Below, in pieces: positions 25,101 to 64,000 of a stretch of DNA of 64,000 nt. The notes beneath the pieces are model-generated. The model had not been told where the DNA came from. It searched no databases and saw only the letters and a program-made list of their open reading frames with translations. Both the position numbers and the translations under genes were made by a program. Origin of the DNA: Branchiostoma floridae (Eukaryota > Chordata > Leptocardii > Amphioxiformes > Branchiostomatidae); NCBI RefSeq assembly GCF_000003815.2, contig NC_049991.1, positions 6,494,120-6,558,119 of the forward strand, given 5' to 3'. Numbering within the stretch: position 1 is the first letter of the stretch; each line of letters starts with the position of its first letter.

Positions 25101-28100
25101 TCAAAGCATTCAAGAGGCCAATGATGCAGCCAAAAATGATGTTTTCAGATACATTTTCAATTGACAATGTGTTAATAATACTTTAAAATTACAGTGTATC
25201 GCTGCATGATTATATTCAATTTATGAAAATTATTATGCACACAAGGAACAGAGGAAAAAAGTTGGTGAGAACTATTTCTACTAAATTCTAGTATAATCTA
25301 GTTCATAATTTAAAGTGTGCATGTGCCATGTGATGCACTATGGGTAATATGTCAAAGGTGAATGCCCCTGAGAAGTAAACAAAACATGTCTTGACATGTA
25401 TTTTGCATTGATCGAGATAATAACTGATTACATGTTAGGGGCCTACACCTTTGACGTTGCACAGTTTAAACTCTGAACTGGTTTGTCATCATGATGTCAG
25501 AAGACCTGTTATACGTACTTATTCTACTTCCCTCTCTTTTCTTCCCTTTTTCCTTTTCTAAGGATGATGCACACACTGAAGATGTGATAGAAGATGAAGA
25601 AGAGAATCAGTCAGAAGAGGAGAGAAGAGCACTTCTAGCTCCTGTCAATGGTACATGACTTTGACATGTTGACATGCATGTTTCTATTTTTGGCAATGCC
25701 TCAAGGGTGGAGGTATTCTTTATTTTCCTGTACTTGAGAAGATAAGGCCTAGACTATACTTCTGAGAGAATTGGGGTCATTACATAGGGATTGTCTTATC
25801 TTTTTTTTCTTTGTTTTTTTTTCTAGGCCTAGGTTTCTGATTATGATGATGATTTTTAGATTTCAGTCAAAATAAGCCAACAGCAACAATTGTCATATGA
25901 TTTAATGGCTTACTGTAAAATATCTAGTTTTTCCTGTAATTTTTTCGTGTGTCAAAATGCAGAGCTTCCCCATTGTTGTCTCTATGTTTTGTTGTGCAAA
26001 ATAAGACTAAATGTGTTCATGTTTTTTGCAACTTCATGAAGGTATTGATGAAACAGGTTAGTTTGCATATTACATATGAAATAAGTATTGTCTGCATTCT
26101 TTATAAGACTCGCTGCCGATAGACGGAACTGGAGAAAGCTTGCAGCTGCCTGCTCTGCAGCCGACTGATGATGATGATGATGATGATTAGACTGTATCTT
26201 TCTAAAGTGACTTGGTTTACATGCAATGCGTGTACCCTTTGTACAATCATTCATTGTCTATAGTTTCATTTTGAAAAGTGACTTCATCACTGTATGTTTT
26301 ATCTGATGTTCTTCTGTAGATCCCAAAAGAAGAAGAGTCGACCTGTATGACATCACAGAAAGGGTGGAGATGGTAATTATAAGGTCTTTACCTAAGGCTG
26401 TTTCCAGTACTGCCCCCTAGTGGAAGTAAGATGTACTGCAGCATGTTCAGGGATGTAAATTTCAGAAGAATGTTTCCTTGGAACTATATATAAAATAGAC
26501 CTCATTTGATTCCTTATTCAGTAAATAAGATACAATTTATGTTTGCAGTGTAGTATTACTGAGCTTTTTTGTTTTATATGCTTTTACATATACATATACA
26601 TGTAAGCTGTGTGCTTTTTGCCCGATCCGCGATAGATATATAATTCATCTGAACAAAATAATGTGGTATTTTCTTTTCCAGGGCCAAATGGCATCCATGT
26701 TCTTCAACAAAAGTAAGAACCAGTTATAGTCCCTTCAAGTTTTCTTAAGAGTATGATTATAATCTAAATGTTCTCCTAATGACAGTTGTGTAATTTGAAC
26801 CTGTCAAATAGATTAATACAATCATACAAGTGGTTGTCAATGATATATAATCTATTTCTTTGTCCCCAGTTGGCTGGTACCTGTTCTACCTGTGCATTGT
26901 TATCTACCTGTACGGAGACCTGGCCATCTATGCTGCCGCTGTGCCCAAGTCACTCAGGGATATCACATGGTGAGTCCTAGTGTCCTTATTACCTCAGAGG
27001 AGTTGGTTCACTCTCCAAACAACTCCAAACAAACCACCATCTTACATGTGGCTATCAGTTCTTGTCCCTGTGGGACTTTGTCCGCTAGCAAACGAGAGGG
27101 TGGAGAAGGAAATGCACACCCCTCCTTCACCTTAAAAAGTCACATGCAGGCCAGGCAGACTGCAAGTAAATGTCTACCTACCATTGTCTTCCGAGACAGA
27201 TGGACGCCAACATATAGCAACAACAAAGTTGGTCACCTTTGAACGGATTACTGTTTTTTGGTTGTGTATGTGTGTTTGCACCTGTAACTCAAGATCCTTT
27301 TCGTGGATTTGTGTGAATATTAGTCTATTGCTACAATGTAGTTGTTGAGCTACCAAAGAGACATGGAAATTTTGGGCCCCCTAGCAGTATTTTCAGGAAC
27401 TGCAGCATTGCAGACCAACACCCCTTTCCTGTATAGTCTACAATGAACCCTATTCTTTTCAACTCCATTCTTTTATTAGGTGTGGCTCTCCTCAAATACA
27501 TAACCTCCAGGTAACGTCCTATCTGAAGGATGTTCCTAACAGTACTCATTTTCACCTGAGTGAAGTTGTATAAAGTGCCTTTCCCAAGGCCACAGCAAGA
27601 ACATTTGTTCTTCTCTTTGCCATGCCATAACCAGGGCTCAAAATTCATTTTGGGATTAGGTGCACTGGTGCACCCAGCTCAAAAAAATGGGTGCACCAAA
27701 AAATGTTTGGGTGCACCACTTAAATTTAAGTAGAATGTCAGAAAACCTAATAGCAAAACTTAGTTACAAGCTTTCAAATTGACCATGACAGACATTTTTA
27801 TTATCTTTATAACACTTCGAATTGTCAAGAATATGATGTATACTAGTATACTTGATATCTTTACATACATAAACCTAATAAAATATTTGGGTGCACCCTG
27901 TGCACCCACAGAAAATAATTGGGTGCACAACTCCAGTTTTGGGTGCACCTGGGTGCACATGCACCCAGTATTTTGAGCCCTGCATAACTGTAACGGTATG
28001 TGTACCTTCCATTGCTCCAGCCCAGTGAACATCACCTGTAACATTAAGCCCATGCCATAACTGTAACGGTATGTGTACCTTCCATTGCTCCAGCCCAGTG

Positions 28101-30257
28101 AACATCACCTGTAACATTAAGCCCATGCCATAACTGTAACGGTATGTGTACCTTCCATTGCTCCAGCCCAGTGAACATCACCTGTAACATTAAGCCCATG
28201 CCATAACTGTAACGGTATGTGTACCTTCCATTGCTCCAGCCCAGTGAACATCACCTGTAACATTAAGCCCATGCCATAACTGTAATGGTATGTGTACCTT
28301 CCATTGCTCCAGCCCAGTGAACATCACCTGTAACATTAAGCCCATGCCATAACTGTAATGGTATGTGTACCTTCCATTGTTCCAGCCCAGTGAACATCAC
28401 CTGTAACATTAAGCCATCCAAGCAGATCAACCTGACCAACTCTTCACCATGCTGGGGGACTGCTGTCAACAGGCAGAATGCTTACAGGGTGTATCTGGTA
28501 AGCAACTAGTGTAACAGTTTTTACAGTCACTGTGATGGTTATGATAATAAATGAATTATGTTCTTATTTTATATAATAATCCTAAACAGTTTTATTGCTT
28601 TATTTCCTTTTCCCATTAGTAAACAAAGCATGAAAAAGATAGACATGTTCTGCATGATGAGTGATAAAATTGTTATGCTGAATAAAGCCTGTAGTTAGGC
28701 TGAATGATATCTAAAAGCCCATTAATTAATTAATGTTGAAGAGTATGGCTGAAAGAAAGCTTCAACAGTTAAAATTTATGCTCTTAATAAAGATGATACT
28801 CTATCCAAATGCCTTTCCTGTTTTATAGCAACAATTTTATCTTTGTTTTGTCAGGGTGCCTTCTCCTTGCTACTCGGGCCGTTTGTGTTCTTCAACGTGC
28901 AGAAAACCAAGTACCTACAACTTCTCACATCTCTCATGCGATGGGTTGGTGAGTATCCCCTTTTTATTACCTTCATAAAGTGGAGGTACTGTGTGGCAAT
29001 AATTTTACCAATGAGCTTGTATCCTTGCTTTCACAAAATATGTAGTTGCTGTGCTTGGATTGTGATAACATAATATTTGGAATGTAGATACTATATGTTG
29101 TGATCCTGAAAATGTGCTTTCTCCAGTTACCTAAATGTTATCCTGACTTTGAATCTTGAGTTAAAGATCTCGGCAGTTTTTGCTTACTTGACTTGCATGT
29201 TGATGAAAAGGGTTACAATCCTTAGGACGGGATGTTAAGTCATGACCAACTGTTCATAATGCTTGTTGATAACAACCAGAAAAATTTCAATAACTGTAAC
29301 TGTAAGTTGAACCTGTAGATGATGTACAACTTGTATAGCATCTGCCTTTTCTGTCATGACTGCCAGAAGAGTACGTAGCTCAAATGTTCATTGAGTTAAG
29401 TTGGTTTGAGATCACTTTCCATTCTTGTGCAGTGCACTTAATATTTAGCGTTTGATATCAAGTAAAGTAACCTGTTTCTACTCGTTCTAATTTTAGCGTT
29501 CACGATAATGATCATCTTGGCGATGACCCGTATAACCCACGGCAAGGGCGAGGGCCATCCCAAGATGGAGTCCATCACCAGCGTGCCCAACCTCTTTGGT
29601 GTGTGCGTCTACTCCTTCATGTGCCAGCACTCCCTGCCTTCGCTCGTCACTCCAATCAAGAACAAGCGCCACCTATCGCTTCTCGTCTTCTTCGACTTTC
29701 TCGTAATCCTCGTCTTCTACTTGGTGTTGTCGTTCACCGGCATCTTCTGCTTCAACAACAAGGACATCAAGGACATCTATACCCTCAACTTCATGGACAA
29801 GTGCGATCCGATCACGAGCGCGAAGGAGATCAGTTACTTCCTCGGACTGTTCCCGGTGTTCACGCTGAGCACGAACTTTCCCATCATCGCGATCACGTTG
29901 CGGAATAATCTCAAAACATTGTTCCACAGGGACGGGTACACTTATCCATGGATCATCGATAGAATATTCTTCCCGCTTCTCACCATAGTCCCGCCGATAG
30001 CGGTCGCTTTTGGCACCGACGATCTCGAATTCTTGGTAGGGGTAACGGGATCGTACGCGGGGGCGGGAATACAGTATCTTGTGCCGGCGTTCCTTGTTTA
30101 TTCGGCGAGAAAAGAGCAGAGAATACTGTTTGGGCCGGGCTCTATAAACAAGCACACGTCGCCGTTTAGACATACATTTTGGGTGTATTTCGTTTGGATC
30201 TGGGGAACGCTGTCTATTATTTTTGTTACTGTCAATCATATTTTGACAAAGAGCTAG
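19119..30257 (+). CDS. TMEM104: Transmembrane protein 104 (amino-acid-transporter-like)
   Basis: TMEM104 is a multi-pass membrane protein related to the SLC38/AAAP amino-acid transporters; its substrate is not established. Coding exons are 19119-19163, 21992-22113, 22670-22754, 25563-25650, 26320-26372, 26682-26712, 26870-26969, 28386-28497, 28855-28948 and 29497-30257. All phases agree and give 496 residues, the length I recall for human. The start is MAGDITETGSLYSP. The first helix region contains IVGTGALTMPKAFGAAGWL. An acidic loop (exon 4) is followed by YDITERVEMGQMASMFFNK. The last exon carries VCVYSFMCQHSLPSL, SYFLGLFPVFTLSTNFPII and SPFRHTFWVYFVWIWG. The last exon is much richer in G+C than its introns. 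Two exons have tandemly copied edges (22017-22449 and 27983-28412). Confidence 0.96.
19850..19932 (+). repeat. Dispersed repeat, partner of 14745-14872
   Basis: This is the reverse complement of the block near 14800 (AAACTCTGCTGTCCGGAGCT, CCACATGTTGGG, GCTGCTATAAGCAAGATT). It lies in TMEM104 intron 1. No terminal structure was seen. Confidence 0.6.
20845..21758. mobile_element. TIR element with CAGGGCTCGAAATAC ends and ACTTGCAC subterminal arrays
   Basis: The left end CAGGGCTCGAAATAC pairs with the right end GTATTTCGAGCCCTG (one unpaired base next to it). CTAGA flanks both sides (20840-20844 and 21759-21763). The outer 100 bases at each end contain several copies of ACTTGCAC or its reverse complement, the arrangement of transposase-binding subterminal repeats. 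The 914-bp core has no transposase. The tips look hAT-like, but the visible target duplication is only 5 bases, so the superfamily is left open. It lies in TMEM104 intron 1. A lone end of the same type occurs at 53278. Confidence 0.7.
22017..22449 (+). repeat. Three copies of the 3' half of TMEM104 exon 2 with its donor
   Basis: The last 97 bases of exon 2 (22017-22113, from TGATAGTAGGGACAGG) plus donor and adjacent intron recur at 22151 and 22306, spaced 134 and 155 bases. The second copy is identical over the exon part; the third has one change that turns a Trp codon (TGG) into Arg (AGG). Both extra copies keep the donor CAG|GTAGGG, at 22248 and 22403. Neither has the exon's 5' part or acceptor, so they should not be exons themselves. 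Small indels between units argue against a simple assembly error. Confidence 0.9.
23529..23598. repeat. Imperfect inverted repeat in TMEM104 intron 3
   Basis: GTCAGTTTAC with CGTCCACTC on the left pairs with GAGTGGACGTAAACTGAC on the right; the left arm has six extra bases. A hairpin is possible. Its function is unknown and it may be the core of a small palindromic MITE. Confidence 0.5.
27626..27988. mobile_element. TIR element with CAGGGCTCAAAAT ends and GGGTGCAC arrays
   Basis: The element body spans 27632-27982. Ends CAGGGCTCAAAAT and ATTTTGAGCCCTG are inverted repeats. CATAAC flanks both sides (27626-27631 and 27983-27988). GGGTGCAC or its complement occurs many times within about 100 bases of each end. 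It has the same architecture as the element at 20845-21758 with a different subterminal word. No transposase frame is present. It is inserted exactly at the upstream edge of the 73-bp TMEM104 repeat array. Confidence 0.7.
27983..28412 (+). repeat. 73-bp array copying the acceptor and first bases of TMEM104 exon 8
   Basis: Six acceptor copies (TTCCATTGCTCCAG|CCCAGTGAAC) put exon starts at 28021, 28094, 28167, 28240, 28313 and 28386, exactly 73 bases apart. Each unit holds the last 25 intron bases, the first 27 exon bases (ending ACATTAAG) and a linker. Only the last copy (28386) continues into the real exon. In frame, the other five reach TAA in CCATGCCATAA after about 12 codons. Each unit also has a donor-like GTATGTGT. 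Units are nearly identical, so the expansion is recent. Confidence 0.95.
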
Positions 30258-38263: not shown

Positions 38264-40653
38264 ATAAAAATACAACAAAACACACACACACAAGTGTAAA
38301 AAGATTCACTCTTATTGATGAAATTCGTTAGACACTCTGACAAGATCACTTTGCCGCAATGATGTCGCAAACGTGTCGCAGTGAGGCCGCAAACGTGCCG
38401 CATCTTCAGTGAGACACTCCCTTGTGTTAAGTCCCGCGACATTCGACTGATGCGTGCCAACAATGGCGGGAAAAAACGTCCTGAGGCAAAACATCATTCT
38501 CTATTGTTCAAGCGAATAATTGGGGTCTCATCTAATATTTAACGTAACCCCGCCCGTGCCAGTCATCAGCTATTTTGGGGTTTGAATTTTGGATCACAAA
38601 AATAATATCCTTTGAAAAAAAACGACTCCTATTTTTGTAGCGTTATATGAACAATGTATTGAATGAGAACCTTCTATGACTAAAATATTGATTAAAATTA
38701 TGTCTGTCAATAAAACGTTGTTTTTGGGTGTGTTCTATACTGTGACCTCCGTAGACCAACGTCATTCTATGACTCATAATTTGTTCTTTTGTATCTTATT
38801 ACGTTTTTTTAATACATTTTAAAGTTTGTAAAATCTTTTTTTAAAGAAAATATGGAAATGACTTTCTTACACTATGAACGCTGCGTAACGAAAAAAGTGT
38901 GGATAATTGTCATTTATAAATCGTCTGTGTCACAAACGTCTACGTTTAGCTGCGTTCGCTACCCTAGGGCAAAATTCTCCGTCTCAGTGCTCCATAATTG
39001 GATCCGGTTCTCCCAGTGTTTGAGCTTGGGGGACGCCAACAAGGCATGAAAGACCCCTCTATGCCCCCCAAGGGTGACTTCTACAACCCGTCTTGAATAT
39101 TAAGAACCTCAGAGTCAAAGGCTCGAACCGGGGAAGTTGAAACAGTCTGCTAGGTTTCCGCCAGAGTCGCCGGCAGAATTTTTGCACCGCGGCATCGCTA
39201 CAGTCACAGCCAAGGCTGGTGAACTCAAGTGTCGTCTGACGGAGCTGTCAATCATACACACGTCTGAGGAAGACTCCGTCAGGTGGTTGTTTGGATTCTG
39301 TCGAAGGTAAGGAATAGGGAGGCCCCATATAAAACTATGTATTTGTGTCCCTATTGTATAGGAGAGAATATCAGAGTGTTTTGCATTATTGTTATCAGAA
39401 AATAGGCTTGTTTGGGAAAATCCTGGAAATATTGATAGCATTTGGCGTAAAATATGTCACTATCATTCAGCTAGCTTATAAAAATGTAGGGGAATTCGAA
39501 GCAGAAAGTATACTATTCAGGTTCGTTGCTAAAAGAAGTACGCTTCAAACTGGTGTAGTAGCTTCATTATCAACTCGTTGCCCAAGGAAAAGCAAATGCG
39601 ACGTACATGTAGCATTTTCTCTAAGTTAAAGAAAATGCTTGACCCGTGGATAGATAATCTCCATTTTTGAGAGTGTAATTCTGTTTTCAGGGGAGAGAAT
39701 GGACAAAAGCGCCGGCCTCTGTATTCCGGTATGTGCCCTGTGCGATTTCTCTTGACCCAAGATGACCTCTTGATATTTACAATTCTCTGCACGACGGTGG
39801 GGTGTTCTATAGGGGAAAGAAAGAGGTCACACAAAATAAAACGGCCAGGCCTGGGTCAGACTATTATACCTTAGTCACTATTGTCAACGTTTATCTCATC
39901 GTGTTGTTTGTTTTGCAACATTTTCCATTTTGTTTGTGGTTACTAGTATTTAGAATCATCTAAGTTGGGAGACTATTATTAGATTTTTCGAAAGCTTTGG
40001 AAATCCAGTATTTGAGTCCATGGTTCCGCTGTGGTCATGATAGCTAGTTGACATTTTGAACAGCTCGACTATGAATGAATTTAGCGTACGTTTCACATTG
40101 ACAGTTCTTTTAGAAACGGAAATAGTGGGAGTGAGATCCTTTGAAAACCAAACATTTGAATCTATGGTTACATTGTGGATTGTCAATCGTAAGGACGGTT
40201 AACGTTCTTGATAGCTTGACCGAAGTATGAATTTATCCTACTGTTCACATTGGAAACAGTTCATTCTAAAACGACTAGACATTAACTGTATGGGCATTTT
40301 ACGTAGGTAGAGCTAGCGTTATACAATTAGGAAAACATCTGCGCACTACTAGTACCTAATAGTACCGGTTTATCATATTCGTTTTATCGAAATCAGTACG
40401 TAGCTATGCGATGACTAAGATACAAGGAAACAATCTAAACGCTTGTATCATTGAAAGATTGACAGAAATTCTTTCAGCGTTAGTCGAAAGGGTCCATTCT
40501 TTGAATGTTGCAATTGCCCCCTCAAGGAAGGCCCCCTACGTACGGACGTGAACACAGCTTGATGAATAACGGTTAGGAAAATTGAATTTGAAATAGCCTG
40601 AAGAAATAGCAAAGCCAAAGGCTAGGATTTTGTAAGGATACCGCAAATTTCTG

Positions 40654-42439: not shown

Positions 42440-45400
42440 ATGGCGCCATGTTGCCTAGCAACGGTAAGCCTGGTTTTCACACTCCTCCTCCCAAACGGCG
42501 AAGGACAGCCTCATCTGCGTACTCCAGGTGACGTCATCATCCCTGCCCTCATCCCCGTCCATCCCGCCGGCCACGTGCCCTTCACGTGCGGTGATGTCAT
42601 ACCCCCTACTAGTCTCCAATTGGTCGAGGCCTTCCTCTTCGCACTTGACGTCATCAACCGTGACTCCGCCCTACTACCTGGGGTCACGTTGGGTGGGGTT
42701 GTGATTGACAGCTGCAATAGTCCCGAAATAGCAGCTCTAGAGGTGACCAACTTCTTAAGTGGGGGCACTGGATATCTTAGCGACGACAAGGACAAAGTTG
42801 CTGGATTTATCAGCGGGGAGTCCGATCAAGTTACCGCCGCGATAGCAAGTGTTCTAGCCTCGACGCAGACTCCTCAAATCAGCTACACGACATCGAGCGC
42901 AACACTGAATGACGATTTGTTGTATCCCTACTTATTTCGATCCCTACCGAGTGAAAAGACACATGGAGCCGTCTTAGCCGAGATTGTGAAAGCTCTCAAA
43001 TGGACATACGTGTCGGTAGTCGTTTCAGACGACGTTTACGGATTGACAAATCAGAAAGCCTTCCGAAGGATCGCGGGAAATGATGACGTATGCATTTCAT
43101 CTACACAGTATGTACGTCAGAACAGCACGGACGCTGACCTTGACTACGTCATTTCCGTTCTGAGAAGCAAGCAAGGGGCCAAGGGCGTGGTGTTGCTTCT
43201 TCAAACGGAGGGTATTCAGAGGGTTTTCGAGGCAGCCACACGAGCTGGGGTTTCTGCACAGTTTCAATGGTTGGGTTTTGGTATGAAGGACATTATTGAA
43301 CAAAATAATTTCGACTCAGTAGCAAAAGGGTCAATGTCACTCGAAACAGAAACAAGACAAATCAACACATTCAAAGATTATCTAAAAACTTTAAATCCCG
43401 CAAACTATACCCGTAACCCTTCTTTCCGAATATTCTGGGAACAATATTTTCACTGCGACCTCTCCCCTCAAAATGGCACTTTTGGACAGAACTGCGCTGG
43501 GAACGAGGTTTTGGACGGAGACTCTGGGTTCGAGCAGGATCCGTTGGTTCTACCGGTCTTCAACGCCGTGTACTCGTTCGCGCATGCGCTGGAAGCAGTG
43601 CTGTCTGGAGGCTGTCTGGGCCCCGTCAGCGCATGCGTGATGGGAAAAGGGGTGCGGTTTTTTGAGAGATTGAAGAGTCTGAGTTTTCAGTCCGTCAGTG
43701 GGAGTAACTTCAGATTCACTCCAGACCGGTTTGCCGATCCAGTGTTCGATGTACTGAACTACAAGAGGATACCAGGCGGTGCCTTTGAAATGACCAAGGT
43801 ATGTCATCAACCACTGTTTTTTTGTGTGTGCAGAATTACGGATTAATATTGGGACACATAGTGCCATTCCTTAGGTGGCGTCGAATGGCCTAAGGTGGCA
43901 TCTCACTGCACTTGGGGCACCGGTGCAGCACTGCGGGGTTCGTAGATGACTCAAGGAATTTCAGAGATAAAGAACGAATTTTCTTACGCGCTGTGTATTT
44001 TGTAGTCTTCTAAGTAATACTTTTACGTATCACGCAATATCTAAATTATAAAAAAAAAGATTGGCGAAAATAGCAGCGGCGCAGTGAACGAACCCCGCAG
44101 TGCCGCACTGGTGCCCCACGCACGTGCAGTGACCTCTAGTGGCTATGAGGTCTCACCTTCGATTTCTGGCAAACCTGATTAGACGATGTGTCCTTGGAAG
44201 AGACACAACTTTCCTCAACCCGAACATGTGTAAAAATGGTTACCCGACCTAGGTTTATAGGTTGCATGGTACAAGGTGGTGGATGGGTTCAACTTTCTTT
44301 TACCGTGCCCAGACACAGTGGATAACAACCCACTGTACCTAAAAAAGCCTACTTGTGTGTTAATACCTTTACATTTTATGTATCTTATCTTTAATTGCTA
44401 TAATTTTCCCATTTCTGTGACAGGTTGGCCGGTATGCAGGTGGCACACTACAGCTGAATCCATCAGATGTCTCCGCCTATAACGACCAGAACATGCCTGT
44501 GGCGTCCACATCCTACTGCGTGGGCACCTGTCACGAATGCGCACGTTCGGACTACGTCATCTACATCCCCGGTGACGTAATCATACCTGCCGTCTTCCCC
44601 ATCCACTCCAGCCAATCGTCGTCTCCGTTCGCCTGTGGCGCCTTGCGATCCAAAGCGGTAGTGCAAGAAGTGGAAGCGCTCTTGTACGCCTTGGATAAAG
44701 TCAACGCTGACAGAGAGTTACTCCCCACGATCAGGCTAGGAACTGTCATAATAGACTCGTGTTCGAGTGGAGTAAAAGCTGTCAGAGACGCTTCGAATCT
44801 ACACAGCACGGGAAAAACTCCAAGAGGAGACCTAGTTTCGCCAATAGCCGGTTACATTGGATCATCAATGGCGGACGAGTCGCAACAACTGGCACCTTTT
44901 TTGGATGGTTTACAAATACCGGAAATAGGCACCTGCCAAAACAATCGACTTTTAACCGACAGATCTAGATACCCGAACTTTCTAAACACTGTTTCGTCGG
45001 AAAAACAAAAAGTGAACGTCACAACCGCAATTCTGAGAAGGTTGGGATTTAGTTATGTCTCCGTTGTCAACAGTGAAGACAAAATGTTTAGGATGTTGAA
45101 AAATGACTTCGTGTCTGCCGCCAACCGGCAGGGGATGTGTATTGCGACAGAAGTGGAGGTGAAGAAGTTTCACGAGAGTGGGGATTACGACAGAACGATT
45201 GCGGCACTAAAAGAACACGCGGAAAAGGGAGCAGAGGCGGTCGTGCTGTTTCTATCTTCTGCGCAAGCGCGCAGCCTTATTGGCGCCGCCTCGCGAGGCG
45301 ATGCCGTTGGCCTCTTCACCTGGGTCTCCGCTTTTGGCCTTGGAGACGACAACGCCTTCTTCTCGTCAAACGTGACCTTGAAACATGCCACAAGGGGAGC

Positions 45401-47383
45401 GTTAAGGCTGGAAACAGAAATAGGAAAATCTCAGACTTTTGAAAACTACGTGTCATCTCTAACACCAGGACAGAACAAGCGAAACCCCTGGTTCAAACCC
45501 TTCTGGCAATATCTCTTTCAATGTGACCTCCCCGGGACCATAGCCAAATATGGTAGGCAGTGCGGGAGTGATTCGCGCGTGGTGAACTTTGACTTCTTGG
45601 ACGACGGCTGCGCACTGAGCACCATCAACGCGGTTGTTTCCATGGCAACAGGTATACACCAGTATTGGAGAGAAACGTGCTCAACTCCCGGTTTGTGCGA
45701 CTCATACTGGAGTTCGGTGGGAAGACTGCAAGAAATCGTGGACAAAATCAGCGCAGTTTCGTATACGGACGAGAGCGGAGGGATATTCAAATTCACGCCC
45801 AGTGGTGATGCGTCGGCGCGGATGAAGATTCTCAACTACCAGCGGCAAAGCGGGGGATCCTACGGCTACAAAGAAGTAGGTCCAAACGTCAAATGAGTCA
45901 TGCAGTGATTTCATTTTTTCACGGCTTTATATGTGATATCAATGTTATCATTCCAATGAGCAAACATATGCATATACTCTTAAAAAACTGATACCATATT
46001 AAAGATTTTTTTCCCTTTAAAACATGACGAAAATCAACAAGTATGGGTTAAAAATATCGACATTGGCGACGCATGGTTTTACGTCATAATGATTCTGGCT
46101 CGAAGTTTAGAATAAATGTTTAAAAAAGCTTCATTTGCAGATTTTGATTATATTCCCTGTTAGTATTACGGTAAGTTAGGAGTGTGGTTCCCTGTCATCG
46201 TGGTTACTTAGTTTATGTTTATGAAAATCCAAACCGACGTTTCTTTGTTTTTGTTGTTGTTTTTCTACAGGTAGGGACGTGGACGGACAACACTCTCCAG
46301 TTGACGCCGTGGACAGTTCGCGCCTACAGCGCCGAGGGTATCGAACGTCGTCCGACTTCCGCGTGCAAGGATACGTCCTTCTGTCCACAGTGTAACAACG
46401 TTCCCTCCTCAAAACCCACCGGTATCAACGCAACCAGAAACGTATTCGCGCCAATCACCGATCTGGAGAGTTTGTGGGGGCTGCTAGTCGTCGTAGCGGC
46501 GGGGCTAGGGGTCACCATCATGACGATATTCACCTGTTACGTCACCGTTACGCTACAGAGCATTCAAACAAAGCGATCGTCAACCGCATTAGGTTACCTG
46601 TTATTGGTTGGTATCCTACTGATGTTCGTAACGGTGGTGTTCTTCGTCATCGAGCCGACGGACGCCGTGTGCGGGCTGCGCCGGGTGGGTCTCGCACTGG
46701 CGTACGCGGTCTGCTTTGCCGCCATGTTGGCCAAAATCGCGCGTACGGGGATGGCGCGTCCCCCTAGCAGCCCTGTTATGTTCGTCATTGCTATTTTACT
46801 CATAGCAGTACAAGTAGCCGTGTCGATCGAATGGCTGATTCTTGTGCCCCCAAAAGCCGTCTATACAGCGGTAACCAACGACAACACAGTCAAGTACATC
46901 TTCCAGTGCGCCGTCAGAAAAGAATCCCTCATCCAATCCCTCACTTATGTCATGTTCTTAGGACTTCTAACCCTTATCTTTGCCATAGCGAAAAGCACTC
47001 GTAGAGAGCGGACTTCTGAGATTGTTTGTATCAGTAATAGTGCTTGGTTGACTGGTTTCATCCTGGTTGCTTGGACCATAATGCATACGCTAGGAGCTAC
47101 GTCGCTGAAGAAGGAAGACTGGCGCGATCCGGCTGTTTGTACAGGGCTGGTTATAACGGGTTGGATTCTGTTGTTGTTTATGTTTATACCAAAGTTGTGG
47201 ACGCTAGCACGTCTGAAGAGAAGGCACCATCTGAGGAAGGTGAACGCAGAGAACCAACGCCGCGCGCGCGCCGTCAGCCACCCGCCTCGTCAAAATATCG
47301 TCAATGGCAACGCAACGTCCCGGTCACGGGGCAGCGACAACAGCAGACCCTCCCAACCGCCTCTGTACGGGGACGTGGCCTAG
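42440..47383 (+). CDS. Class C GPCR with two tandem Venus-flytrap domains, mGluR/GPRC5-like
   Basis: Predicted cell-surface receptor of 1307 residues from three long exons: 42440-43798, 44424-45875 and 46271-47383, all phase 0. Exon A: signal peptide (MAPCCLATVSLVFTLLLP) and flytrap 1 (PGDVIIPALIPVH, LVEAFLFALDVINRD, LKWTYVSVVVSDDVYG). Exon B: the tail of flytrap 1 (VGRYAGGTLQLNP), a short Cys linker (CVGTCHEC) and flytrap 2 (PGDVIIPAVFPIH, EVEALLYALDKVNADRELLP, RRLGFSYVSVVNSED). Exon C: the tail of flytrap 2 (VGTWTDNTLQLTPW), another Cys stub (ACKDTSFCPQC) and seven membrane segments from about LWGLLVVVAAGLG to FMFIPKLW, then a basic tail. Full mGluR-type cysteine-rich domains are absent. 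TM3 has VCGLRRVGLALAYAVCF; the WRDPAVCTGLVITGW stretch before TM7 recalls GPRC5. An acceptor at 42429 suggests an upstream 5' UTR exon. Confidence 0.88.
43889..44142. mobile_element. Palindromic MITE in the first GPCR intron
   Basis: Left arm words CACTGCACTTGGGGCACCGG and GCAGCACTGCGGGGTTCGT pair with right arm ACGAACCCCGCAGTGCCGC and ACTGGTGCCCCACGCACGTG. The arms are about 55 bases, with an AT-rich core and no coding frame. Confidence 0.8.
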
Positions 47384-49655: not shown

Positions 49656-52600
49656 TCACACATCCGGACTCTGTGGGGGTTGTGGGGAGGGGGGCTCTAT
49701 ACTGATCGACACTTCTGAAGTCACAGCAGAAATCCCAGAAGACGCCCTCTGTTTTTTAAAACCCCTGGGACTGCCTGAACTTGAGGTCTTGTGGGTTCCC
49801 TTCGGAGAGGCCTTTTGCGTGGGATCGTGGCCCTCCTCCGAGGGCTCGTGTTTTCTCCAGAACTCCTCGACCTTGATGGAGATGTCCTCTCCTTCCTCCC
49901 GCAGTTCACGCTGCCACTGACGCAGCTCCTGAACCTCAGGGTCTCTTCTTGTCTGTGTAAGAACATAGGTATGAGACCAGTCTTCAAATCATCAATTACA
50001 AATACTTTGTAAAATGTTGAATTAACTTAAAATATCTCAAATTAAATTGTTTTCTACTTAGGCCAGACAAATATATTAATTGGTTCTTGTAATCAACCAC
50101 ACTTTCTATTCCAGACATTAATTGCACCATGGTATTACTATAAATTCATTCATTCTTGAAATAGTTGAACTGTAATTTCCAACACCAAAATTGGACTCAC
50201 CCAAATTTTCGACTGTACAGCATCAGTCTTTGTCAAGGAATGAACAATCCACTGCTGTTGTGCATTGTTGAAATTCATTCAAGAAGTTTCCAGTACAGTG
50301 CTTTTATAACCTCATAAACAAAGTGGGTTGGATTCTCCTGATGCAAAGTGGGTATATGTTCGTATATGTTGCACTTACCAGGTATCCCCTGAAGAATGAT
50401 TGGATGATGGTGGCAGCTTCTTCATCAGACAACAGTAAGGATAAAGGCAATGGGGGCCGGGGGCTAAAGGAGTTTGAAGAAAAAAAAATCATAATCAGTA
50501 TTGTCTCATGAAGATTTAAAAAAGTACATGACTTAACTTGAAAGTTCACCTGTGTTGGTAGAAGTCATTATTGAACTAGTTTAACTGTAATATCCAACAC
50601 AAAATTGGGCTCACCCAAATTTTAGACTGAACAGCACCCGTCTTTGTCATGGTATGCCATAGACTTCCTGCAAACTGCTTACTGAGTCACGTGTTCTATC
50701 TACATAAAGTGATGTCACAACAGCAGTGGATTGTTCATTCCTTGACAAAGACTGGTGCTGTTTAGTTGAAAATTTGGGTGAGTCCAATTTTTGTGTTCAG
50801 TTAGATATTACAGTAAAACTAGTTAAACTAAAAAAAGTACATGACTTTGTTGTAACTTGTGTCTCTTGACCTAATTGGCAAATGACAAATGAAATTGAAA
50901 TGCAAGAATTCAAATGGTCCTGTGCTAAAAAAAGGTTTTGATCTTATTTGGGCTACAACTTACAATGTAAACTTATTCTTGACTTACCAGAGTACACTTA
51001 AGCTAAAGCTAAAGCTAAGCTAAAATCTAAAAAAGGATTTTTCAGGCTTATTAATCAATTTCACAACGGTTGAAAGAAACTGAATAAACTTACTGTTCCT
51101 CCAACCAGCTCTTGACAAACGGAATTTCAAACAGTGTGATGTCATCTCTGTCTCCCGCAAATTTAGGATTCATCCTATAAAAAGCAAAGGAGCAAAGAGA
51201 TAAGACATTAAAGGAAGGATCTTATTTACTGTAATGTACGTTGATGAAGATTAGACAGAAGATATGCCAAAAAGCAATTACTCAAGCCACTGGATTTGAT
51301 TTTGGAAACGTCCAGACGTTTCAGATAGCATCTACTAAAATAGTACTATCTTTCGTCAGTGACACAGAAGTGATCTGGAAGAAACTAAATTTTATACCCT
51401 AAGTTTGAATGAAGACAATTTTGGAGGTCCAACATGAAAACAAGGTAAGACATGTCATGTAATTCTATAGACTACAAATAGATGATGCTCTGGATTGTAC
51501 AGTAATCTGTACCCCTGCTTAGGCATCTAAACGTAAGCAGGTAAAAGACATCCAAAAGACAAGGCTGTGTAAATGAAAACTCCAATATCCCTTGTTCTAG
51601 CGACCTTATGAAATTAAAAGTCAAAATTCATATTGTAAACATGAACTAACTTGTAGAGCCACTCTGTGAGGAAGTCACAGGCGTTAAACTTGGTTCTCTT
51701 CCTCTCAAAGCACCTCTGGTTCTTGGCTTCCCTCAGCATCTCCACCATCCCTGGCAGCAGGACTGGGAAGATGTAATGTTCCAGGTACTCTCTGGGTGCA
51801 CCTGGGGAATAAAATCATCACACCGTAAATCTCCAAATGTTCACAGTACTGGGAAGATGTAATGTTCCAGGTACTCTCTGGGTGCACCTGGCGAATAAAA
51901 TCATCACACCGTAAATCTCAAAATGTTCACAGGACGGGGAAGATGTAATGTTCCAGGTACTCTCTGGGTGCACCTGGGGAATAAAATCATCACACCGTAA
52001 ATCTCAAAATGTTCACAGTACTGGGAAGATGTAATGTTCCAGGTACTCTCTGGGTGCACCTGGCGAATAAAATCATCACACCGTAAATCTCAAAATGTTC
52101 ACAGGACGGGGAAGATGTAATGTTCCAGGTACTCTCTGGGTGCACCTGGGGAATAAAATCATCACACCGTAAATCTCAAAATGTTCACAGGACTGGGAAG
52201 ATGTAATGTTCCAGGTACTCTCTGGGTGCACCTGGGGAATAAAATCATCACACCGTAAATCTCAAAATGTTCACAGGACAGGGAAGATGTAGTGTTCCAG
52301 GTACTCTCTGGGTGCACCTGGGGAATAAAATCATCACAATGTAAATCTCAAAATATTCATATAGTGTTTTCATTTTATTCAGACATTTATGGAAGGCTTT
52401 TATAATCAAATCAATATGGTCTTAACCTCCCTCTAAGACCATATTGATTTGATTATATGGGTGACATTTGCACACACATCAGTTTTTGTCCATTTTCAAC
52501 AAAAGTTTTCAACCATACTGCAGCTGCAAAATGAGCAAATGTATGCCATGAATTGCAAAAAAAAAAAAAATACTATAAAAACAGCTACTTACTAAATGTC

Positions 52601-59270: not shown

Positions 59271-62200
59271 TCAAAGTTCATCTTTCTTCTCAGCAGCTAG
59301 TTTGGGGATGACCTCGTTCCAAAGTTTGGCTTTCTCCGGCTTGAGCCCAACGCCAGTGTTCGGCACCACGTCCAGCTTCATGTAGACCGGGTTGTCAGGT
59401 GTGTACTGAGGCCAGGTCGGCAGGGAGGGGCTGTCAGTGGGGCCGCCGGTGGAGTCGGACGGGTCCCTGAAACAGATCATACCATATTATATTAACTTCC
59501 GAAGTGGATTTAGATATTGTAAGAATGTATTAAGGATATGTGCAATAGATCGTTATTGGTAGTATATGTCAATCTTTAACTTTATGTTAGTCAGATCTGT
59601 GAATCTATGAAATGAAGACAAGAAACTGAAGATAGATATTTACAGTTTTCGTGTACGTCTTAACGTCATAGTCCCAGCCTTCACAAATATGTTAGTGATT
59701 CTCCCCTTCCCTTCTCACCTTAATCGATCCTATCTAAACCTATACTGCTACCTCCCTCCCAAAAGGGGATCGTTGGCCTCCCCCTCCTTTGGCGATAGGC
59801 TGATCAGCTGTCAATGGACGATGCCACACTATATATCTGTATCTATATATTAGTAGCCGGTATATCCGCCGTTCGGCGTGACACACCAGCTTCGCAGGCA
59901 CGCGGCGCGGCAGCAGCTGGTTATATTATACCGAACGACCCGTCACACCGTCAGGAAGGGGGTGTCGACCTGTAATGGTCTAGTACATGCAGATACTGCT
60001 AGGGGCACAAAATCACTATGGGACCATCACCCGCTGAGGTACGTCGATGAAGGTTAGACAATAATCTAGGTAACAAGATAGGCCAAATAGCATTACTCAA
60101 GCAACTGGATATGATTTTGACAACTGTCAGATGTCAGTGACACGGATGTGTAGTGGGATGGTCCCTTGTTTTGACGATTACTGCGCCAATTTGTTGCCGG
60201 GTCCAGGGCTGAGTTTTATCAAATTAAAAAAAAAACGGGGCCTGGTGCTTGAATACCCTGTAGCCGTCTGATATCGCCACATTTGCTTAGTCTTACCCAG
60301 TTCTTGCGAAGTTTGCCCAGTACGCCATCAGACTCAAGCTGACTTCCCTGTCTTCTCTTGAGTACTCTATCTCCGGCAAGTCAACGAACGGGAGTCCTGA
60401 GATCATGAAGAAGTCGTCGGAATGGTCACACCCCACCCAGTCGGGTCTGTTCGGGTGGATGGAAGGTCGGTACTGGTTCTCGTAGACAAATACACGCCCT
60501 CCAGCGGCTGGAAAGATAACGACAATTGTTGATGAAGATACTACAAATAACATGCATGTGATTGTCCAAGTGTACGTCCATATTTATTCGAATATTGTAG
60601 AGTGACAGCAAGGTTTAATCTGGATACTCGGTATATAATTGGTGTATTTGGATACTCGGAGACTTGGAAGTGTTGTTTGGCGCGGGTTCAAAGTTGTAAT
60701 TGAGGTCCAGGCGTTTAAAAAATCTTATCTTCATATAAACAACGCTAACTGCGTATGTGCGTTTGACCGTAGAAACTTGATGAAAATAACTATAACCTCT
60801 TCTTTATTCTCCTGTTATTCTATTGGACAGGTAAGCCCCAAAACGTGTGGACGCTTACTGATAAAATGTGTTCATTTTCTAGTAACAGGTCCCAAAATCT
60901 GGACCACTGAGTCAAATTTTATAGTGCAAGAGGAAAAAACGGTTTTGTTCCTGTACTGGTCCCCACCCCTACACAGAACCGATGTCAAATGCATATAGAA
61001 ATCTAAAGAAGTATATCTAAACTCTCACCGGCATGGTGATCGGCCACCAGAACAGTGGGTCCCACGAACGTGTAATCCCCGTGTACGTGTGAGAACTGGT
61101 GCTGAATCGCCATCGGGTCGTCGGGTGTTGTCGGGTGCCGATACTCGGCGACGATCGCATCCACCATTTTGTCCACGTTTGGATTGTCCTGTATGAACAC
61201 AAGCAAAATGAATACAATAATGAAACCACCTCATCCGCTTCGCTCACTCGTTGGTTTTAGTCGGTAGTTATGGCAAAGAAAATGGGAAAAAGGATAAAAC
61301 CACCTCATCCGCTTCGCTCACTCATTTGTTTAATTCGGTGGTTATATAGCAAAGAAAATGGAGAAAAGAATAAAAACCATCTTGTCCGCGTCGCTCACCC
61401 GTTGGTTTTAGTCGGTATTTATAGCAAAGAAAATAGAGAAAAGAATAAAACCACCTCGTCCGCTACGCTCACTCGTTGGTTTTAGTCGGTAGTTATAGCA
61501 AAGAAACAAGCCTTATGACACCTTATACACCTAGGGTGGATAATTTACCTCTAATACAATAGCTATTCCCTCTTTCTTGGTATGGCTCAGAAACATATTG
61601 TTAACACTTGTATATTTACCGTGTGCTCATACGCCAGCAGTCCTCNNNNNNNNNNNNNNNNNNNNNNNNNNNNNNNNNNNNNNNNNNNNNNNNNNNNNNN
61701 NNNNNNNNNNNNNNNNNNNNNNNNNNNNNNNNNNNNNNNNNNNNNACGTCTCCTTGATTTATATACGGCAGCATCAGCCAATCGAACTCGTGGTTCGTCA
61801 CTCCAAGAAGATAATCCACTGTCTTGGCTTCTCCTTCCTTCATCAACTTCATTGGATCAGTGGTTATAAATGTCCCGTCCACAACCGGAGTAAAATATAG
61901 TCCAGCACTTAGTTGTAAGGCGTACTGTTTCTCCAATAGCTCTTCAGCAGACTTCTCTTTCAGACAGGCCGTTAGAGTTGCCGTGTCCTCCGTCTCGCAT
62001 CCGACCTCACCTGCGATCATCTGGGCAAGTGGCAGCGGCTGCGGGGTGACTGGAAAGGTTTTCCAGGTACCGCTCTGTGAGATGGCTCTCTGGAACAGAC
62101 CATTACTGAGGGGTGACAGAAGATGGTAGGAGATACTGATGCCGCCTGCCGACTCTCCAAATATGGTGACTCTTTCTGGGTCTCCACCGAAGTTTCGGAT

Positions 62201-63449
62201 GTTCTCCTTCACCCATTCCATGGCACGGACCTGTGTTGTAAAGACATACATGATAGCTTTACAAACGCCCCTGAACAGACGGTGGGCGCCATAGACTTCC
62301 TGCAATCTATGATCCACTACTTACTGAGTCACGTGTTCTATCTGCATAACGTGACAGCAGTGGATTGTTCATTCCTTGACGAAGATTGGTGCTGTTCAGT
62401 CGAACCAATTATCCCTAATGTTGCGCTGAAAATAAATCTAACTTTCTCTGTGGCTTCGTTCTTTTGTTACGTTTGTGAAAGAATCACTAACCTGGTCCAG
62501 GAATCCGTAGTTTCCTGGAATGTTCTCGTCTCCCGTACTGAGGAAACCCAAGGCACCGACACGGTAGTTAAAAGAGACCACAACGACGTCTTGGTGAGCA
62601 GCAAGAGACTCCCAACCGGGAGGAGATCCCATCCCCATAACAAAGCCACCTCCAAAAATCCATAGAAGCACCTGCAAACGATAAACACAGATTCAACATT
62701 AATTAAAAGATTCTTCCTTTTTAAGTCTTACATGCAAAAATTAACTGCAAAACAAATGTAACCCAAAAATACTACCTCTCCATGAAAAGTAGCCTCTTCC
62801 ATTGACCCTGTGACCTGGACCGTGTGTCATGTCTGATAATCGACAAGTTCTACCATCTTTTAACTCTACTTTCTGTCACGTTTGACATCACCTTCTCACT
62901 TTCTTCCACTCTAATTTCTTCTACGTGACTTTCTTCCAATCTACTGTCAATACAAAAACAAGCAGATATGCGTACACCGGGAAAAAATGCCCACACAAGG
63001 ACGTAATCAATACGCCATTAAAACAAGTAAGGTATCAGTGCTATTGATCGTTCGTGCTATGATATTAAATATTTCACGATGCATTTTAATCAGTCTCACC
63101 GGTAAACTGGCGTCTGCTGCTACAGTCGGAGTGAAAACGTTGACTGTCAGACAGTCCTCGCTCATGGGCAAGTTCACGTCGATCTTGAGAGGGTGGTCCA
63201 TTTCGTTAGCCTCTGAGATATTTTGCGGACAGTAAGGACCATATTCCACGGCCTCCCTGACCCCCTCCCACGGGAGGGCAGGCTGGGGCGGGCGGTACCG
63301 GAGGTCTCCAACAGGGGGCGCTGCGAACGGGATGCCCAGGAAAGTGTAGATCGGTTTGTCGGGAAGGTCTGTTGCGTGTGTGATAGTTCCTCGGACTTGT
63401 CCGGTTACCGTGGACACTACTGGACCTTCACCCTCGCCTGCTATGCACC
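59271..63449 (-). CDS. Carboxylesterase-like hydrolase, ER-type, partial (assembly gap)
   Basis: Alpha/beta-hydrolase of the carboxylesterase/cholinesterase family. Minus-strand exons: 63449-63100, 62671-62492, 62230-61746 (runs into N), 61645-61620 (other side of N), 61188-61029, 60507-60297 and 59466-59271. Phases agree wherever both sides are known. Exon 1 here has PIYTFLGIPFAAPPVGDLRY and SEDCLTVNVF. The next has the oxyanion Gly run in VLLWIFGGGFVMG and HQDVVVVSFNYRVGALGFLS. The catalytic Ser is in VTIFGESAGGISISY, the acid probably in GVTNHEFDWLMLP and the His in GCDHSDDFFMISGLPF. The C-terminus AAEKKDEL is an ER-retrieval signal, like the HIEL/HTEL ends of vertebrate liver esterases. 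The signal-peptide exon was not found; it is upstream of 63449, possibly outside the window. Substrate unknown. Confidence 0.88.
59832..59985 (-). mobile_element. LINE-type 3' end, copy in esterase intron
   Basis: CCGCCGTTCGGCGTGACACA, CCAGCTTCGCAGGCACGCGG and CAGCAGCTGGTTATATTATA match 63482-63585 almost exactly. Next to it is ATATCTGTATCTATATATTA, the same simple-repeat tail as the other copy. The 5' part is missing, as is usual for truncated retroposons. Confidence 0.6.
60040..60165 (-). repeat. Dispersed repeat, partner of 51228-51380
   Basis: CGATGAAGGTTAGACAATA, ATAGCATTACTCAAGCAACT, GGATATGATTTTGACAACTG and GTCAGTGACAC correspond block by block to 51228-51380. It is diverged and lacks the central TAGCATCTAC part. 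Confidence 0.5.
61211..61507 (+). repeat. Four imperfect ~74-base tandem units in esterase intron
   Basis: Each unit runs AAAACCACCTCATCCGCTTC, GCTCACTCGTTGGTTTTAGT, CGGTAGTTATAGCAAAGAAA and a short A/G tail. Four units differ at 10-20% of positions. The array lies about 140 bases from the assembly gap, so it may have contributed to the break in assembly. Confidence 0.9.
61646..61745. other. Assembly gap (100 N)
   Basis: Exactly 100 N, a conventional length for a gap of unknown size. It interrupts the esterase coding region between LPYINQGD and a stub reading LLAYEHT, so one or more introns and exon parts are missing. Confidence 0.99.
62283..62425. mobile_element. Part copy of the GGACTCACCCAAATTTTC MITE core
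   Basis: CCATAGACTTCCTGCAATCT, TACTGAGTCACGTGTTCTAT, CAGCAGTGGATTGTTCATTC and CTTGACGAAGATTGGTGCTG match 50648-50765 in IQCK intron 4. It lies in an esterase intron. Confidence 0.7.
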
Positions 63450-64000
63450 CTGTCGATATAAAGAATATCTGTCTGTATCTGTATCTATATAGCCGGTATA
63501 ACCGCCGTTCGGCGTAACACACCAGCTTCGCAGGCACGCGGCGCGGCAGCAGCTGGTTATATTACACCGAACAACCTGTCACACTTAACTTTAGCACATC
63601 TATCTGCAAGCGTTCTTTAAAACTACCGAGAGAAGATGCCCCTACTGTGCTTGGTGATAACAAATTCCACTCTACGATAGTTCTGGGAAAATACGAATTT
63701 TTGAACACATCAATCCTAGGTTGGTAACTCTGGTACTTGAAGTCATGGCTGTTTCTTGTTCTTTTTTGAGCTGGTATGATATAATTATCAGTCGGTACGA
63801 ATACAAACAATATAACGTCTAAAATGATACTGATAAGTACCAGTTAACTAGTTTGAGTTTCTCTTTGATTGGCGAAGGGGATTAGATCATACGTTTCAAG
63901 ATGGTGGACCAATGACGCCAGAATTCATATGGCGGCGCCCTAGGGACAGAAGGTAAAACCATGGAGGTTATATTCAGACCTCCTTGGTAAAACAAAGTAG
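63450..64000. other. Region upstream of the first esterase exon seen
   Basis: Holds the LINE-type fragment to 63810. The last 190 bases contain CAAGATGGTGGACCAATGAC and CATATGGCGGCGCCCTAGGG, but no signal-peptide exon with a matching donor was recognised. Confidence 0.4.
63465..63810 (-). mobile_element. Non-LTR retrotransposon 3' end with reverse-transcriptase C-terminus
   Basis: The minus-strand frame 63810-63562 reads KRTRNSHDFKYQSYQPRIDV, KNSYFPRTIVEWNLL and GSFKERLQIDVLKL. This matches the usual C-terminal tail of LINE reverse-transcriptase polyproteins (RxRNSH, then FPRTIxxWN and SFKxxL). About 100 bases of 3' UTR follow and end in a (GATACA)n-like simple repeat at about 63465-63492. 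The 5' part is absent. It stops only 15-30 bases upstream of the esterase acceptor at 63449. Confidence 0.7.

Follow-up and report, generated by a model that had tools for sequence, protein, structure and literature searches.

Two serial Venus flytrap domains before one seven-transmembrane domain in an amphioxus class C-type receptor, a very probable derived member of an old bilaterian family

The stretch of DNA analysed here, referred to as the window, comprises 64,000 nucleotides of the amphioxus Branchiostoma floridae (contig NC_049991.1 of assembly GCF_000003815.2, positions 6,494,120 to 6,558,119 of the forward strand), and it holds a gene for a class C-type G protein-coupled receptor (GPCR) with two Venus flytrap domains (VFTs) in series before a single seven-transmembrane domain (7TM). 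Three exons, A, B and C (Table 1), each with a length that is a multiple of three, join into one frame of 1307 codons with zero internal stops; a preliminary description of the locus had proposed these three phase-0 exons and this frame, and both are confirmed here to the base. In the Pfam search of the joined 1307-residue protein, ANF_receptor is found in two stretches and 7tm_3 once, which bears out the proposed order of two flytraps and one 7TM. For ANF_receptor (gathering cut-off, 25.4 bits), exon A alone scores 172.7 bits (1.5e-50) and exon B alone 140.7 bits (7.9e-41), and the 7tm_3 match in exon C has E = 3.2e-32. Both VFTs span positions 1–437 of the 437 in a VFT hidden Markov model (HMM) that was built in this analysis from the window VFTs and related VFTs. 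They have 132 of 426 aligned residues in common, and, as had been noted, both open with PGDVIIPA and end in equivalent tails, the first encoded in exon B and the second in exon C. When all 64,000 nucleotides were scanned with the HMMs in six frames, two VFT matches (442 and 426 bits) and a single strong 7TM match (259 bits) were obtained, three further 7TM matches reaching at most 10.3 bits each. Chance as the source of this architecture is excluded.

Class C GPCRs usually carry one VFT per chain, although this is not a formal criterion, and the window receptor departs from that arrangement with two complete VFTs. Its best matches in PDB are the VFTs of metabotropic glutamate receptors (mGluRs), namely those of mGluR4 and mGluR3 for exon A (mGluR4, 2.6e-58) and that of mGluR3 for exon B (8.3e-56). 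The nine-cysteine domain NCD3G was found neither by Pfam in the window protein nor by a scan of the locus, and three cysteines are present in the linker that precedes the 7TM. A hydropathy scan (19-residue mean above 1.6) shows a single N-terminal segment at residues 1–19, none in residues 20–994 and then the 7TM block, the 7TM itself occupying residues 1002–1245; no N-terminal hydrophobic segment is present in exon B, in line with the earlier observation that this exon lacks a signal peptide of its own. The same protein exists as an NCBI B. floridae model (P0001, 100% identical over 1307 residues), where it is annotated as "metabotropic glutamate receptor 3-like".

Table 1. Coordinates of the window gene, of the two related loci and of other features in the window
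Feature	Position	Strand	Description
Exon A	42440-43798	+	1359 nt; start codon, signal peptide (about residues 1-22), VFT1 minus its C-terminal tail; phase-0 donor GTATGT
Intron A	43799-44423	+	625 nt, GT..AG
Exon B	44424-45875	+	1452 nt; VFT1 tail VGRYAGGTLQL, three-cysteine linker CVGTCHEC, VFT2 minus its tail; both ends phase 0
Intron B	45876-46270	+	395 nt, GT..AG; AATAAA at 46111, ATTAAA at 45998
Exon C	46271-47383	+	1113 nt including stop; VFT2 tail VGTWTDNTLQL, three-cysteine linker CKDTSFCPQC, class C 7TM, short cytoplasmic tail
C11a	C11:11893815-11917238	-	loci L029-L032; five VFTs, then one 7TM
C11b	C11:11704059-11713841	-	loci L033-L034; two VFTs and one 7TM
Frame upstream of exon A	39104-39310	+	contains GELKCRLTELSII..TSEEDSVRWLFG, similar to the additional N-terminal part of P0003 (a B. 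belcheri model); possible 5' exon, some 3 kb before exon A
Donor-like GTAAGC	42464-42469	+	inside exon A, 24 nt after the start of the ATG; possible cryptic donor
Neighbouring gene	29466-30254	+	amino acid transporter exon (Aa_trans)
Neighbouring gene	61619-63561	-	carboxylesterase exons (COesterase)
Tandem repeat	27976-28415		73-bp unit, 6.1 copies
Tandem repeat	51758-52359		86-bp unit, 7.0 copies, 96% matches

The layout is retained in a second amphioxus, a group in which a search for the same domain order had been proposed. The B. belcheri model P0002 has 1307 residues and is 88% identical to the window protein with zero indels, the identities amounting to 388/453 for exon A, 415/484 for exon B and 351/370 for exon C; within the last of these, 229 of 244 residues of the 7TM and all 62 of the C-terminal tail are the same. 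Two further B. floridae loci, C11a and C11b, also combine several VFTs with one 7TM. C11a is the clearest example of VFTs that follow one another without any splicing: one open frame of 890 codons spans the greater part of VFT3 and the whole of VFT4. At this locus, phase-0 donors follow VFT4 (..GFVE, then gt) and VFT5 (..GYVK, then gt) at the same point of the fold as in the window, with a phase-0 acceptor before IGTW.. as found there. A phase-0 intron between VFT body and tail is thus present in the window gene and in VFT4 and VFT5 of C11a, and it is absent between VFT3 and VFT4 of C11a. The second VFT of C11b runs into a stretch of N in the assembly, which lies inside a 565-codon frame. Eight loci, drawn from 28 PF00003 matches of which many are fragments, included seven canonical ones, and an NCD3G match (E up to 1) adjoins each of these seven, being over the curated cut-off in six and below it at C9:11.29 Mb; no such match adjoins any of the three multi-VFT 7TM loci of B. 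floridae. A separate check of the cysteine pattern found the domain at six of the same seven canonical loci and at none of the three multi-VFT ones.

The window architecture is not specific to amphioxus, and is one case of a wider family with two to five VFTs. Three whole-database protein searches, in each of which about 8000 candidates were scored (a sampling that does not establish absence from vertebrates, ecdysozoans or cnidarians), yielded 28 distinct proteins. Twenty of these, animal by name or by tree, have at least two VFTs, one 7TM and no NCD3G, the combination by which we define the family and which the window receptor also has. They comprise three amphioxus models (P0001–P0003), nine from echinoderms and hemichordates, and eight with exactly five VFTs, namely four nemertean models, one each from Mercenaria and Nucella, and two that the 7TM tree places among the molluscs. 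The preliminary description had suggested a search of hemichordate and echinoderm genomes for the same order, and serial VFTs do occur there, not as two but as exactly four before the 7TM in eight of the nine models (two crinoids, a brittle star, a starfish, two urchins, a sea cucumber and Saccoglossus). The ninth, P0028 of Glandiceps talaboti (1716 aa), has three VFTs, the first incomplete at its start, which group in the VFT tree with ambulacrarian positions 1, 2 and 4; its VFT3 has been lost or was overlooked by the gene model. P0025 (2851 aa; 93 contigs, the longest of 9646 bases) and P0026 (2885 aa; a 9298-base contig) are continuous frames that nearly fill their contigs, so that these contigs appear to resemble assembled transcripts.

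The other eight proteins differ from this pattern. P0005, P0017 and P0019 have NCD3G and, in effect, one VFT (the VFT match of P0019 is split), and P0021 is unrelated. P0018 (1716 aa) has three VFTs and one 7TM, with zero cysteines in its inter-VFT linkers and a poor 7TM score against the family HMM (44 bits), and it may represent a separate, non-animal origin of serial VFTs. Three fish models, P0015, P0020 and P0027, show several VFTs, but P0015 and P0020 have NCD3G matches and P0015 and P0027 have no 7TM match.

A second hallmark of the family is found in its cysteines. The linkers between VFTs, 39–68 residues long, contain exactly three cysteines in 60 of 60 cases (19 proteins), and the lobe-II cysteine is kept in all 63 VFTs scored; the window receptor has both. 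In mGluRs, the lobe-II cysteine bonds to the cysteine-rich domain, and the corresponding stretch before the 7TM contains nine cysteines in both of the canonical rows compared. The linkers of the three fish models contain either 0–1 or 6–11 cysteines, never three, and on this difference from the three-cysteine type we have rejected the fusion of gene models as the source of the serial VFTs.

Phylogenetic analysis places the multi-VFT receptors together. In the 7TM tree, 21 multi-VFT rows (19 proteins and the two C11 loci; P0018 was left out, as was P0003, which was excluded from all trees and counts) separate from 11 canonical rows with support of 100/100, a split that recurs in 100% of the 200 bootstrap trees. 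In the VFT tree, built from 63 VFTs of 14 of the 20 proteins and of the two C11 loci plus three canonical rows, every position forms its own clade within Ambulacraria and likewise within Lophotrochozoa, and a clade with 98/96 support brings together the position-1 VFTs of Ambulacraria, of Lophotrochozoa and of two amphioxus genes. The second VFT of the window pairs with VFT B of C11b (98/95). In the approximately unbiased (AU) test, a single clade of all 25 lophotrochozoan VFTs (p 5e-5) and a single clade of all 27 ambulacrarian VFTs (p 2.5e-4) were both rejected, and because these one-clade-per-lineage constraints fail, at least two serial VFTs would, under this model, predate the split of protostomes and deuterostomes, later duplications being lineage-specific. 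The alternative that survives best is that serial VFTs arose repeatedly by independent domain duplication, with no ancestral multi-VFT receptor. It can draw on the lophotrochozoan VFT2–VFT4 (and probably VFT5), which resemble lineage-specific duplicates, on the internal VFTs of amphioxus, which have no resolved placement in the VFT tree, and on P0018 with its three VFTs and cysteine-free linkers. Nevertheless, the grouping of position-1 VFTs across phyla, the rejection of lineage-wise clades, the single clade of the 7TMs and the linker pattern common to the members all argue against repeated origins, which we consider unlikely.

A different objection concerns the transcript. The phase-0 ends of exon B stand at the same point of the VFT fold, exon A joins exon C in frame, and the tail at the start of exon C completes VFT1 as well, so that skipping of exon B would yield a one-VFT receptor of 823 residues; exon B could then be an alternative cassette and the two-VFT form a minor or regulated isoform. 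Between the two Branchiostoma species, however, exon B is as conserved as exon A (85.7% each), family members other than the two-VFT C11b have more VFTs rather than fewer, and the VFT3/VFT4 junction of C11a contains no intron. Nor would the skipped form, which has no nine-cysteine domain, be a canonical receptor of the mGluR type, and a cassette of this kind seems to us quite improbable.

To examine the ligand pockets, we have used the signature S165-T188-D208-Y236-D318 in mGluR1 numbering (S/T, S/T, D, Y and D/E being allowed), whose residues we take to be the contacts with the amino-acid backbone. The contacts with glutamate are R78 and K409 (PMC6307864). The complete signature is present in 20 of the 63 VFTs: VFT3 in five of six four-VFT ambulacrarians (the sixth has F for Y), the position-2 VFT of Glandiceps, all five VFTs of the nemertean Tubulanus (P0013), three of Lineus (P0024), two of Mercenaria, one each of Nucella and P0025, and VFT1 and VFT2 of C11a. 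R78 is kept in five of the 63 and K409 in one. In the window receptor, R78 and K409 are replaced by L,L in VFT1 and by E,C in VFT2, and the backbone positions read D,S,E,Y,G in VFT1 (two of five agreeing with the signature) and A,N,E,M,F in VFT2 (none of five). From these residue counts, the family is probably not glutamate-sensing, several amino acids could be sensed by certain members, and the window receptor is, to judge by its pockets, derived. Since its pockets have lost the amino-acid signature, the "mGluR3-like" label is probably a misnomer, and neither glutamate nor an ordinary alpha-amino acid is likely to be its ligand. The integration of ligands within one chain, which had been suggested for this receptor, has no support in a protein whose VFTs keep only two and none of the five positions; it would be a better hypothesis for relatives such as P0013.

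The same erosion might be read as the decay of a relic, with VFTs that bind nothing and are retained by chance. Against this stand the open frames in both Branchiostoma species and the near identity of the 7TM and the C-terminal tail between them, which indicate strong constraint, and the fact that the pocket is eroded with the fold retained also in ambulacrarian VFT1, VFT2 and VFT4 (0–3 of five positions kept; 18 VFTs from six four-VFT proteins), and a relic is in our view very unlikely. Least credible of all is a misreading of two adjacent genes as one, in which a gene for a soluble or truncated VFT would precede a gene for a receptor with one VFT: apparently fused class C models do exist in fish, but exon B starts with the tail that completes the VFT of exon A and, without a signal peptide, continues in frame through the linker, intron A contains neither AATAAA nor ATTAAA and in the HMM scan no VFT or 7TM similarity and no remnant of a 7TM, the three-cysteine linker is constant across phyla and missing from the fish models, and the same order of domains recurs in crinoid, urchin, starfish, brittle star, sea cucumber and Saccoglossus. 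Since VFT1 tail, three-cysteine linker and VFT2 are encoded within the single open frame of exon B, the junction between the two VFTs is present in the genomic DNA. The evidence supports one gene with two VFTs in series before one 7TM.

Several observations weigh against this reading and its extension to an old family. The splicing of the window gene is deduced from its sequence and from existing gene models, and the fish models with apparent tandem VFTs make fusion a real hazard in the superfamily. The second B. belcheri model, P0003 (1355 aa), has a split VFT2 match with about 40 profile positions missing, which gives it three ANF_receptor stretches, and its VFT2 tail looks frame-shifted; these oddities probably reflect a fault of the gene model or the assembly. 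Of the 19 proteins, only 13 have three cysteines in the final linker, ahead of the 7TM, the others having one, two or four. The rooting of the VFT tree depends on three canonical rows, and in the best tree VFT1 of the window lies outside the position-1 clade, although its placement there is not rejected by the AU test (p 0.144). Taking all this together, we regard the predicted architecture and the family membership as nearly certain, and the window gene as, very probably, that of a real class C-type receptor with two serial VFTs on one 7TM and a reduced, derived member of an old bilaterian multi-flytrap family.

How such a receptor might work can be outlined only tentatively, and we hold the following relay to be possible rather than probable. 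Putative disulphides from its lobe-II cysteine would fasten each VFT to the short linker with three cysteines that follows it; when a VFT competent to bind ligand closes, lobe II would move and thereby pull, via the linker, on the next module. The membrane-proximal VFT and its linker would take the place in the relay that the cysteine-rich domain holds in mGluR and CaSR, and the relay, in a receptor that presumably dimerises, would turn the 7TM and so activate a G protein. Because VFT1 of the window receptor keeps part of the old amino-acid pocket and VFT2 none of it, VFT1 would be the likelier sensor and VFT2 a relay or scaffold.

Comparison with known systems sets the receptor apart from each of them. 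It resembles mGluR2/3/4 in the best structural matches of its VFTs, in its 7tm_3 domain and in the lobe-II cysteine, and it differs in having two VFTs and no nine-cysteine domain, in the replacement of R78, K409 and most backbone residues, and, from mGluR and CaSR alike, in a 7TM that lies outside the canonical clade. V2R/OlfC receptors and CaSR have one VFT plus NCD3G, a layout with which P0005 agrees, and share with the window receptor a VFT of the mGluR type. Venus kinase receptors of invertebrates also have an mGluR-like VFT, but with a single transmembrane pass and a tyrosine kinase output instead of a 7TM. Bacterial sensor kinases of the BvgS/EvgS type and the GlnPQ importer place a pair of VFT or substrate-binding domains one after the other in a single membrane protein; with unrelated output domains and VFT class, they are a functional analogy and are not homologous as receptors. 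GABA-B receptors combine a class C VFT and 7TM without a cysteine-rich domain, as described in a study (PMC12716839) that gives the metazoan class C architectures as ANF plus NCD3G, ANF alone, or Cache plus EGF; they have one VFT, whereas the multi-VFT family has three-cysteine linkers and the window VFTs match mGluR best in PDB. The class IV mGluRs, also present in amphioxus, are class C receptors that have likewise lost R78 and K409, but they keep the amino-acid backbone contacts that are mostly replaced in the window receptor and are well conserved overall, and the accessible portion of their description does not mention a multi-VFT layout (PMC6307864). In the same way, the portion seen of a survey of amphioxus GPCRs lists 17 glutamate-family receptors with no mention of such a layout (PMC2246102). 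No account of class C receptors carrying several VFTs came up in a search of open-access PMC full text, with subscription papers and preprints outside its scope, and the architecture is likely, but not certain, to be new to the literature. In the parts of the GPCR surveys covered, the layout may have gone unmentioned because database models are labelled mGluR3-like or uncharacterized.

Models of class C activation assume one VFT per protomer, coupled in mGluR and CaSR via the cysteine-rich domain. A conserved family with two to five VFTs in series and with linkers of only three cysteines lends itself naturally to testing how the closure of a VFT is transmitted to the 7TM, and multi-VFT receptors offer a logic-gate architecture in a single chain. 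The contrast of ambulacrarian VFT3 with VFT1, VFT2 and VFT4, together with the five intact nemertean pockets, makes ligand integration directly testable. It is conceivable, if somewhat short of an even chance, that the bilaterian ancestor had a multi-flytrap class C receptor whose descendants are single-chain combinatorial chemosensors, reading several amino-acid-like ligands in up to five pockets and summing them into one 7TM output; the amphioxus gene would then be a stripped, two-VFT version of it, retuned to another ligand.

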